Source of the DNA: Rhodobacterales bacterium HKCCE3408 | GTDB taxonomy: Bacteria; Pseudomonadota; Alphaproteobacteria; Rhodobacterales; Rhodobacteraceae | Reading direction: 5' to 3' | DNA length: 64,000 bases | Assembly (NCBI GenBank): GCA_015689705.1 | Contig: WVSN01000006.1 | Location: 62,001-126,000, forward strand | Shown here: positions 21,501 through 24,563 of the stretch, piece after piece | Position numbering within the stretch: position 1 is the first letter of the stretch | How the letters are laid out: every line of letters begins with the position of its first letter | Notes under the pieces: generated by a model | Database searches by the model: none | What the model was told of the DNA's origin: nothing | The model's input: the letters and a program-made list of their open reading frames with translations, nothing else | Position numbers and translations under genes: made by a program

Positions 21501-21562
21501 CTTCAGCTCTCCAGTTACGGAAAGCCGCCACGCAAGGGGAATTTCGGATGCCCAGGGGAATC

Positions 21563-21587
21563 AAAAAGGCCGCTCACGGGGCGGCCT
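21563..21587 (-). terminator. Rho-independent terminator or attenuator
   Basis: On the minus strand AGGCCGC (21581-21587), loop of seven bases, GCGGCCT (21567-21573) followed directly by a run of T (21563-21567): a textbook intrinsic terminator. It lies 29 bases after the stop of a 16-codon leader ORF and 63 bases before the start of the DUF1127-like gene on the same strand, which is the layout of an attenuator. It could equally end a short stand-alone RNA. Confidence 0.72.
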
Positions 21588-21615
21588 CCAGGGTTACGAT
21601 CCTGACCTGCCGCGC

Positions 21616-21666
21616 CTACGCGTTGTCGCCTGCCTGGCGAAACATGATGCAAAGGGTCGGCGTCAT
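21616..21666 (-). CDS. Putative 16-residue leader peptide
   Basis: A 16-codon [19 protein letters not shown], with GGAGGT five bases before its ATG, the best ribosome site in this intergenic region. It ends 29 bases before an intrinsic terminator. No codon is repeated in the way amino-acid leader peptides usually show, so if it regulates, the signal would be something other than simple starvation. It lies in the 356-base stretch between the DUF1127-like gene and ettA. Apart from the terminator and this ORF I see no gene there. Confidence 0.45.
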
Positions 21667-21856
21667 TCAGGACCTCCAGTCCGGCGCAAGTGCCGGTGCC
21701 GGTGCCGTGGCTCATAGCCAGCGGTGGGGCATCCGGCAAGACAAATGTTCCGCCGCGTCAGCCGGTCGGCGGAAAACCGGCACCGGGGCCCCGATTGCCC
21801 TTCGCCGCCTGCTCCGCTATCTCCGGCGAAAGTTCTCGCCCCCGGAAGGACCACTC

Positions 21857-23512
21857 ATGGCCAGCTACCAGTATGTCTACCACATGGATGGAGTCTCGAA
21901 GACCTATCCCGGTGGCAAGAAATGCTTCGAGAACATCCGCTTGAGCTTCCTGCCGGGCGTCAAGATCGGTGTCGTCGGCGTCAACGGCGCGGGTAAGTCC
22001 ACGCTCATGCGGATCATGGCCGGTCTCGACAAGGATTTCACCGGCGAAGCCTGGGCGGCCGAGGGTGCCAGGGTCGGCTACCTCCCGCAGGAGCCGCAGC
22101 TCGACGAGAGCCTGAATGTCCGCGAGAACGTCATGCTCGGCGTGGCCGAAAAGAAGGCCAAACTCGACCGGTTCAACGAACTGGCCATGAACTACTCTGA
22201 CGAGACCGCCGACGAGATGGCGCAGCTTCAGGACGAGATCGACACCCAGAACCTCTGGGATCTCGACAGCCAGATCGACGTCGCGATGGAAGCGCTGCGC
22301 TGCCCGCCGGACGAGGCCGACGTCAAGACGCTGTCGGGCGGTGAACGCCGCCGCGTCGCGCTCTGCAAGCTGCTGCTCGAAGCGCCCGACATGCTGCTCC
22401 TCGACGAGCCGACGAACCATCTCGACGCCGAGACCATCGCCTGGCTCCAGCAGCACCTGATCGACTACAAGGGCACGATCCTGATCGTCACCCACGACCG
22501 GTATTTCCTCGACGACATCACCGGCTGGATCCTCGAGTTGGACCGCGGCCGTGGCATCCCCTACGAGGGCAACTACTCGTCCTGGCTGGAACAGAAAGCC
22601 AAGCGGCTGGAGCAGGAGGCGCGCGAGGACAAAGCCAAGCAGCGCACCCTCAGCCGCGAACTTGAATGGATCCGCGCCGGCGCCAAGGCGCGCCAGACCA
22701 AGCAGAAGGCCCGGATCGACCGCTACAACGAGCTCGCCGCGCAGTCCGAACGCGACCGCGTCGGCCGCGCCCAGATCGTCATTCCCTCCGGTCCCCGTCT
22801 CGGCGGCAAGGTGATCGAAATCGAGAGCCTGAAAAAGGGCTACGGCGACCGCCTCCTGATCGAGGATCTCTCTTTCGCCCTGCCCCCCGGCGGCATCGTC
22901 GGCGTGATCGGCCCGAACGGCGCCGGCAAGTCGACGCTCTTCCGCATGCTGACCGGGCAGGAACAGCCAGATGCCGGCACGCTGGAGTACGGCGAAACGG
23001 TCGAACTGGCCTATGTCGACCAGTCGCGTGACGCGCTCGACGACAACAAGACCGTGTGGGAGGAGATCTCCGGCGGGGCCGAACTCATCAAGCTCGGCGA
23101 TGCCGAGGTGAATTCCCGCGCCTATTGCGGCAGCTTCAACTTCAAGGGCGGCGACCAGCAGAAGAAGGTCGGGCTGCTCTCGGGCGGCGAGCGCAACCGC
23201 GTCCACATGGCGAAGCTGCTGAAATCCGGCGGCAACGTCCTGCTCCTCGACGAACCGACCAACGACCTGGACGTGGAGACGCTCCGCGCCCTCGAGGACG
23301 CGCTCACCGATTTCGCCGGCTGCGCCGTGGTCATCTCCCACGACCGCTTCTTCCTCGACCGCATCTGTACGCATATCCTCGCCTTCGAGGGCGAGGCGCA
23401 TGTGGAATGGTTCGAAGGTGCGTTCAGCGATTACGAGGAAGACAAGAAGCGGCGGTTGGGACCGGATGCGCTTGAGCCGAAGCGGGTGAAGTACAAGAAG
23501 TTTGTGCGGTAG
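21857..23512 (+). CDS. ettA: Energy-dependent translational throttle protein, ABC-F ATPase
   Basis: A 551-residue soluble ABC-F protein with two ATPase domains and no membrane part. First domain: Walker [11 protein letters not shown], signature [19 protein letters not shown]. Second: [35 protein letters not shown]. Between them is the arm/linker ([28 protein letters not shown]). EttA binds the ribosomal E site and gates elongation according to the ATP/ADP ratio. ATG 21857 follows GGAAGGACC; the longer frame upstream lacks homology. Length is normal. Confidence 0.96.
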
Positions 23513-23533: not shown

Positions 23534-24145
23534 TCAAACGGCGGGATGGCTCCCGCCCTGCGCTTCACCGAAATCGCCCGTCGGAAGATCGCCGGCCCAG
23601 TCCGCCGGAAGCCTCCCCGCCCGGATGACCCGGTGGATCGACGACGCCTCCCAGTCCGTCGGCCGGTCTACAAGACCGTGCTTCACGGGGTTCATCAGGC
23701 AATAATTCATATGCGCGGCGACGTCGCGCGCATCGCGGCAATGGTGCTCCCAGAAACGGCGTTGCCAAACAGCACACTCGCGCCTGTCTCCTCGTAGACC
23801 GGGCTTCAGCCGGGCAAAGCGCCCGCTGCGAATCTCGGGCATCTCCGTTGGGAAATCCGGGCTGAAGCCCGGTCTGCAACGCCAGCCACGCGTGAACCGC
23901 GCTTTGATGCGCCCCCACCTTTGCGCGTAATTCAGGTCGTCCTCCGGCATACGCCACACAGCATGCATGTGGTCCGGCAGGACCGCCCATGCCAGCACAT
24001 CCACAGGCCGGCCGCGAAGCGTCATGCGCGCCGCGTCCCGCAAGAGATCGATATGATCGACCAGCACGGTCGATCCCCGCTCCGCCAGGCAGACCGTAAG
24101 GAAGACCGGCGTATCCGGGCGGGTCAGACGTCGATACCGCGGCAT
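23534..24145 (-). CDS. REP-associated tyrosine transposase (RAYT, Y1_Tnp family)
   Basis: A 203-residue HUH-type single-strand transposase. Seen: catalytic HxH in VLPDHMHAVW (His59, His61) and the nucleophile-region HMNYCLMNPVKHGLV. RAYTs recognise REP palindromes and are single-copy, domesticated relatives of IS200/IS605 enzymes. Between TRGW and CAVWQRRFWEHH lies an unusually long stretch (RPGFSPDFPTEMPEIRSGRF and on), encoded by DNA that contains two REP-like palindromes in inverted order (separate entry). The frame stays open through it. Start ATG 24145 is a choice by homology; a TTG at 24166 is possible. Convergent with ettA. Confidence 0.85.
   Translation of the reverse strand: MPRYRRLTRPDTPVFLTVCLAERGSTVLVDHIDLLRDAARMTLRGRPVDVLAWAVLPDHMHAVWRMPEDDLNYAQRWGRIKARFTRGWRCRPGFSPDFPTEMPEIRSGRFARLKPGLRGDRRECAVWQRRFWEHHCRDARDVAAHMNYCLMNPVKHGLVDRPTDWEASSIHRVIRAGRLPADWAGDLPTGDFGEAQGGSHPAV
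23796..23875. repeat. REP-like inverted pair inside the RAYT gene
   Basis: AGACCGGGCTTCAGCC at 23796-23811 recurs as its exact reverse complement at 23860-23875, 48 bases apart. Each arm is itself near-palindromic around GGGCTTCAGCCC, the right arm extending to CCGGGCT-GA-AGCCCGG. Two REP units in opposite orientation form a BIME-like element. It is in frame with the RAYT coding sequence and encodes PGFSPDFP and RLKPGLRG. Confidence 0.75.
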
Positions 24146-24356
24146 CCCTAACCACTTGCCCGGCAATGGTTAACCAAGGGTGAACCAATACCGCGCGCGC
24201 GTCGAACCTCTTGCCAGATGCAACAAGCATCGTTATACGCCGCTTCGCTATCTCTCTCTATCGACCCACTGTCTCCCTCACCGGCTTCAGTTTCGATCTT
24301 GACTGACTGCCGGGCCGCTGCATTCCGCGAGCGGCGCAAAACCAGGAGACATCACG

Positions 24357-24563
24357 ATGGCCAAAGGCACCGTGAAATGGTTCAACGCCACCAAAGGCTT
24401 CGGCTTCATCCAGCCGGATGAGGGCGGCAAGGACGTGTTCGTTCACATCTCGGCCGTGGAACGCGCCGGGCTGACCGGCCTGAACGACGACCAGAAGGTC
24501 ACCTTCGACCTCGAGTCGGGCCGCGACGGCCGCCAGAGCGCGACCAACCTCGCTCTCGCCTGA
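24357..24563 (+). CDS. cspA: Cold-shock domain protein
   Basis: A 68-residue CspA-family single OB-fold protein: [18 protein letters not shown] with RNP1 (KGFGFI) and RNP2 (VFVHI), ending in [10 protein letters not shown]. Binds single-stranded RNA/DNA and melts secondary structure. ATG 24357 follows AGGAGACATCACG. About 190 bases of leader precede it (24146-24356, no gene seen), long enough for a structured 5' UTR. Followed by a strong hairpin and then by the tandem micro-ORFs on the same strand. The label cspA denotes family, not an E. coli orthologue. Confidence 0.95.

Follow-up and report, generated by a model that had tools for sequence, protein, structure and literature searches.

The RAYT gene and its internal inverted pair

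The window analysed here is a 64,000-nucleotide stretch of the genome of Rhodobacterales bacterium HKCCE3408 and contains a single gene for a REP-associated tyrosine transposase (RAYT, or TnpAREP), in which an inverted pair of short arms lies within the coding sequence. The features of the locus, in the order of transcription, are:

23534..24145, minus strand: RAYT (TnpAREP) gene (NF047646.1, PDB 4ER8)
23963..23971, minus strand: HxH catalytic pair H66 and H68 (210-residue numbering, counted from the start at 24166)
23774..23878, minus strand: insert, residues about 97–131 (AlphaFold2 model; gap against 4ER8)
23857..23877, minus strand: internal REP 1, GCAGACCGGGCTTCAGCCCGG, head GCAG in place of GTAG, stem intact
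23815..23856, minus strand: coding spacer between both internal REPs, with a peptide motif common to 22 other RAYTs
23794..23814, plus strand, opposite to REP 1: internal REP 2, GTAGACCGGGCTTCAGCCGGG, head GTAG intact, one stem mismatch
23702..23704, minus strand: catalytic tyrosine Y155 (210-residue numbering; alignment of 65 RAYTs)
23540..23561, minus strand: relic of the 3′ flanking REP, GCAGGGCGGGAGCCATCCCGCC, a third, decayed REP with head GCAG, translated as the C-terminus

The open-reading frame encodes 203 amino acids from its ATG, or 210 if translation starts at the TTG at 24166, and is matched by the NCBIfam model NF047646.1 (REP_Tyr_transpos) with an E-value of 7e-43 and 146 bits, against a cut-off of 80. 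A search of the genome found it in single copy. Across 65 aligned RAYTs H66 and H68 are invariant and Y155, the catalytic tyrosine of the family, is almost invariant. On one side the gene is followed by an open-reading frame at 21548–23512, which by the look of its sequence we take to be an ABC-F type ATPase, and on the other lies one at 24357–24563, presumably a small cold-shock-like protein, again by the look of its sequence.

The two 16-base inverted arms that a preliminary description had placed in frame between the HxH pair and the tyrosine are indeed exact, with 48 bases between them: positions 23796–23811 and 23860–23875 are complementary at 16 of 16 bases, and a repeat search stretches the pair to 19 nt at 95% identity. 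We interpret the pair as a partly decayed REP doublet (REPIN), of the sort on which this RAYT family acts, because each arm on its own is self-complementary and forms a hairpin stem behind a REP head (G[T/C]AG). Each follows the REP layout of head, A, CCGGGCT, TC and AGCCCGG, and the two heads face away from each other, which is the arrangement of a REP doublet. On the plus strand, 23794–23814 has a GTAG head followed by a palindrome in which one stem position is mismatched; the head of the other copy is GCAG. The idea that a REP element sits in frame within its own transposase gene is thus borne out, both by the REP-type arms and by matching REP types in relatives (see below).

The closest solved structure to the protein, by sequence (E 5.8e-35) and by fold, is PDB 4ER8, the REP-bound E. 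coli TnpAREP of subclass 2.2, which matches the AlphaFold2 model with a Foldseek E-value of 2.1e-15 (Z 21.9, rmsd 2.5 over 155 residues, 42% identity). It aligns on both sides of the insert, but bridges the two matched stretches with 5 residues, against 38 in the window protein. The model (65-row alignment) has a mean pLDDT of 80, whilst block means within the insert are near 50; here the insert is predicted as a low-confidence coil or loop after helix 80–96 (helix C) and before strand 139–142 (strand 4). The preliminary description had the doublet add about 25 residues; the extra length is real and in frame, but its size depends on the reference, being 20–21 residues against most insert-lacking relatives (47 residues between conserved anchors compared with 26–27) and 33 against E. 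coli TnpAREP.

Decay of the REP system in the window genome

In the 3.9-Mb genome of the window, the 18-base arm core with at most one mismatch was found nowhere beyond its two copies in the RAYT gene, and at up to three mismatches it gave 38 matches compared with 25 for a reversed control. A general REP pattern gave one match (three in the control), and the three REP types of relatives that were searched for gave none. Many dispersed GTAG REP copies are present in relatives but not in this genome, and because dispersed copies are lacking we class the copies in the window as REP relics. In a complete REPtron an inverted pair of REPs encloses the RAYT, one on each side of the gene (Nunvar 2010), and such 5′ and 3′ flanking REPs are common in the relatives. 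In the window no 5′ REP was found and the 3′ REP is a decayed relic, in which the TAG of GTAG now reads CAG, so that the RAYT frame continues to a later TGA. The type of this 3′ relic has two more loose matches in the genome, at two mismatches. With the heads mutated, the dispersed copies essentially gone and the 3′ REP turned coding, the REP system of this genome is decayed whilst the RAYT frame is still open, and the internal pair is a relic there.

Absence of the arms elsewhere, together with conservation of the same peptide over unrelated DNA, had been named beforehand as the outcome that would speak against a REP within the gene. The first part holds. The second does not, as the relatives carry REP DNA at this site, of a type that follows the REPs of their own genome, and recoding of the same peptides yields few REPs.

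Internal REPs in related RAYT genes

We compared 80 RAYT loci from named genomes with 70 loci (the window's own included) from searches of its own genome, genus and family; the family search found a RAYT in 65 of 295 sampled genomes at E <= 1e-25, and 70 of 73 matches were fetched. The 150 loci gave 146 full-length open-reading frames, of which 140 are distinct, leaving out six duplicates and four partial frames (L062, L080, L081 and L133). In these four the RAYT frame is partial or split between frames, and they are possibly pseudogenes; L062 and L081 also carry internal REPs. A strict REP was defined as GTAG, 0–2 bases and a stem of at least 7, scanned between the anchors IKARF and WQRRFW.

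A strict internal REP occurs at this site in 67 of the 140 RAYTs (66 of the 116 from Rhodobacterales), as a doublet in 38 genes, in minus orientation only in 22 and in plus orientation only in 7, giving 108 internal REPs in total, with three in some genes (L039, L032). The REP persists in 62 genes when the stem is set to at least 8 without mismatch, and in three at 9 or more. In seventeen RAYTs, including that of the window and of its genus-mate L022, the segment is long but holds no strict REP, and the remaining 56 have neither long insert nor REP. Among the 24 rows not assigned to Rhodobacterales, L023 has a strict internal REP and the other 23 have none; one of these 23, L071, probably comes from a Rhodobacterales bin under a wrong label. 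Matches were obtained in 6 of the 338 genomes of a class-wide sample; of eight loci examined, seven had a readable segment, all without a REP, and L219 had no readable segment. The first set, by contrast, had been picked by likeness to the window protein. The same site therefore holds REPs in about half of the compared RAYTs and in most of those from Rhodobacterales, and their type, as judged from stem sequences, agrees with the flanking and dispersed REPs. The case is not singular, since internal REPs are common in Rhodobacterales RAYTs and in-frame REPs have already been published for another subclass.

A 5′ REP was present in 13 of 66 REP-bearing genes against 15 of 36 (p 0.02), a weak trend on which we do not adopt replacement of the 5′ REP by the internal one. 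At the other end of the gene, the GTAG of the 3′ REP supplies the TAG stop in 34 of the 66 REP-bearing Rhodobacterales genes. This stop-giving phase (G TAG) is absent among the plus-oriented internal REPs.

REPs were also seen in other genes. Forty dispersed REPs were retrieved from four genomes, and 24 of them fall inside some open-reading frame of at least 100 amino acids; in 20 of those 24 places the frames spanning the REP were scanned, and a Pfam domain extended across the REP in three (L181, L182 and L187), whilst in a fourth, L193, the REP lies ahead of the domain. In L181 a complete REP (~1500–1522) lies within a DXP reductoisomerase gene, where the Pfam domain is not visibly longer and the REP-encoded peptide AGLKPGL seems to take the place of a native motif. 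REPs at ~1500–1522 likewise lie inside the genes of an NAD(P)H-hydrate dehydratase (L182) and a carboxyl transferase (L187), in different frames. Intragenic REPs are not confined to RAYT genes, which is in line with published work.

REP DNA and the encoded peptide

The internal REPs are concentrated in the insert: 108 were found in 15.9 kb of insert sequence, none in 58.8 kb from the other parts of the RAYT core and six in 394 kb of distal DNA. Similarly, a GTAG is followed by a hairpin in 108 of 138 cases in the insert, but in none of 130 elsewhere in the core and in 6 of 1,248 in distal DNA. When the same peptides were recoded synonymously a REP arose in 40 of 13,400 trials, and from this low yield we conclude that the DNA, rather than the peptide, has been kept. 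Codon identity inside versus outside the REPs (0.87–0.96 versus 0.44–0.49) was set aside as evidence and the recoding null used instead, because the rows had been sorted by stem and selected for hairpin formation, so that the figure is biased upwards. The peptide is not free of constraint, however, because one frame per orientation is used in 100 of 108 internal REPs and the spacer motif is shared by 23 RAYTs, window included. The remaining eight (two in L028 and one each in L075, L086, L126, L132, L146 and L150) are in another reading frame with the DNA motif kept.

This dominant frame and shared spacer motif are what could be cited for an ordinary conserved protein loop in which the palindrome is incidental. 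Such a reading is contradicted by the recoding null and by the matching of REP type with flanks and genome, and the frame shifts that leave the DNA motif intact also count against it, so that we give it next to no credence.

REP type in the gene, its flanks and the genome

Internal and flanking REPs are both present in 52 genes, and in 43 of these the eight-base stem of the internal REP equals that of the gene's own flank, compared with a mean of 7.6 and a maximum of 17 in 5,000 permutations; in the other nine the internal type differs from the flanks. The internal REPs fall into 18 eight-base stem types. We counted dispersed copies of three single types outside the RAYT locus in 80 genomes, 78 of which have a full RAYT in the set. 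Genomes whose RAYT carries GCCGGGC (18, versus 60 others) have a median of 10 dispersed copies and the others 0 (Mann-Whitney p 4e-13); for GGTGGGG (14 versus 64) the medians are 4 and 0 (p 5e-8), and for GGCGGGG (12 versus 66) they are 25 and 0 (p 6e-10). Reversed-pattern controls for the three types were all zero. The rows of both the flank and the dispersed-type tests are related, and shared ancestry is still contained in these statistics. Independent pairs on well-supported (starred) branches, three per type, showed the same direction or no difference and never the opposite, although they are too few for significance.

Origin and maintenance of internal REPs

The distribution of internal REPs does not support a single ancestral insertion: parsimony needs 25 changes of REP state, at least seven of them forced by starred branches, and a single clade of the 80 rows with a long segment was rejected (p-AU 0.016). 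With 147 columns for 140 rows the resolution of the trees is poor, which limits inference on the number of origins.

We consider it probable that these transposase genes tolerate their cognate REPINs within a loop, where the copies evolve in concert with the flanking REPs, and that the pair in the window genome is a relic of this state. REPINs, either mobilised or templated by the RAYT or copied by recombination, would have entered the helix C–strand 4 loop more than once. They may have been tolerated because the loop is peripheral and their phase avoids stops, and the internal copies would have been converted in place together with the flanking REPs upon a switch of REP specificity. An internal REP is dispensable, as 73 of 140 RAYTs lack a strict one.

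A single clade of the 23 RAYTs with the spacer motif was rejected by the whole core (p-AU 1.6e-5) and by its N-half (2.7e-4) but not by the C-half (0.215), no more than a hint that the two halves of these genes may differ in history and that the genes may be mosaic. The internal and 3′ REPs bound the half that encodes the tyrosine, and REP-mediated or homologous recombination could swap this half, insert included, between RAYT lineages. The C-half has only 57 columns, however, so its non-rejection is weak, and the trees are quick and poorly resolved; we think such a cassette exchange quite improbable as the explanation.

A doublet might instead be kept for control in cis, if the RAYT or the mRNA machinery acted on the hairpin, in the gene itself or in its transcript, so that the RAYT gene would be autoregulated via mRNA or single-stranded DNA. 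RNA of the doublet stretch in the window folds with a z-score of −3.4 (none of 200 shuffles was equally stable), three relatives that were folded gave −7.3, −3.6 and −4.0, and internal REPs persist through changes of stem type, all of which would suit such a role. However, the genes with a single orientation of strict REP (22 minus, 7 plus) imply that the doublet hairpin is not required, and 56 of 140 RAYTs do without long insert and REP altogether, which makes control in cis unlikely in our judgement.

Alternatively, the REP-encoded peptide could form part of the REP-binding side of the protein and help to recognise the same REP, so that substrate and reader change together. The insert maps between helix C and strand 4, a region that the text of Quentin et al. 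2018 (PMC6006769) places near the REP recognition region, and the internal type tracks the dispersed type. Yet the loop is a low-confidence coil in the model, some genes (L075, L086, L028) read the same REP type in a different frame and thus encode a different peptide, and insert-lacking RAYTs have flanking REPs too. A recognition loop written by the REP is in our opinion very unlikely, and tolerance of cognate REPINs accounts for the internal copies with greater probability.

Relation to known REP systems

Quentin et al. 2018 (PMC6006769) have already described REPs that lie in frame inside tnpAREP genes, as unique to subclass 2.4 (RAYT group 4), with some in subclass 2.8. In subclass 2.4 the insertion lies between strand 3 and helix C, and the genes belong to Cyanobacteria, Bacteroidetes and various phyla. 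Our genes resemble these in having REPs in the tnpAREP gene itself, with the frame kept, between the HuH motif and the tyrosine, at a site judged peripheral in subclass 2.4. They differ from the main-text description of that subclass in their HuH motif (DHMH in the window and DHLH in the alignment consensus, not NH[IFV]H), their SS motif, their insertion site (helix C–strand 4, not strand 3–helix C) and their occurrence in Rhodobacterales. From its motifs and the modelled insertion site, the window protein appears to be subclass-2.2-like: it shares with subclass 2.2 the DHLH motif (as DHMH), the SS tail motif and the helix C–strand 4 insertion site, whilst at the Y motif (YIHYNP in subclass 2.2) it reads YCLMNP and for the W motif (WE) both WQ and FWEH are present.

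Di Nocera et al. 2013 (PMC3733652) report intragenic REPs in a variety of genes, many with a role in DNA repair. These, and the Rickettsia palindromic elements treated there and in works cited there, are in-frame palindromes, often dimers coding for 20–30 residues, and in this they resemble the internal REPs; unlike here, the passages of that paper on RAYTs mention flanking REPs and overlap with gene ends, not the gene interior. In the REP orthoswitch, as outlined by Nunvar et al. 2013 (PMC3686654), the RAYT-flanking REPs change type and the new type then spreads, whereas in our genes a REP inside the coding sequence changes along with the flanking REPs. In the open-licence literature, supplements excluded, we found no description of internal REPs in RAYTs of Rhodobacterales or of subclass 2.2. 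Our results add a second, 2.2-like subclass to the tnpAREP genes with in-frame REPs, and a second insertion site, which lies close to the region reported for REP recognition.

These genes bear on how a RAYT stays matched to its REPs as both evolve. The internal REP might be a specificity element carried by the gene itself, acting either by way of its DNA (as a substrate in cis or a site of autoregulation) or by way of the encoded loop peptide beside the REP-binding face. It would then link the RAYT with its cognate REP, and enzyme and repeat family would change type in step without closing the gene; we hold this to be unlikely. Rhodobacterales RAYTs carry their cognate REP inside the gene, and each such gene therefore records its own REP type. 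Together they form a natural series, from doublet to single REP, decayed and none, in 18 stem types, for testing co-evolution, self-recognition and the concerted evolution of enzyme and repeat.
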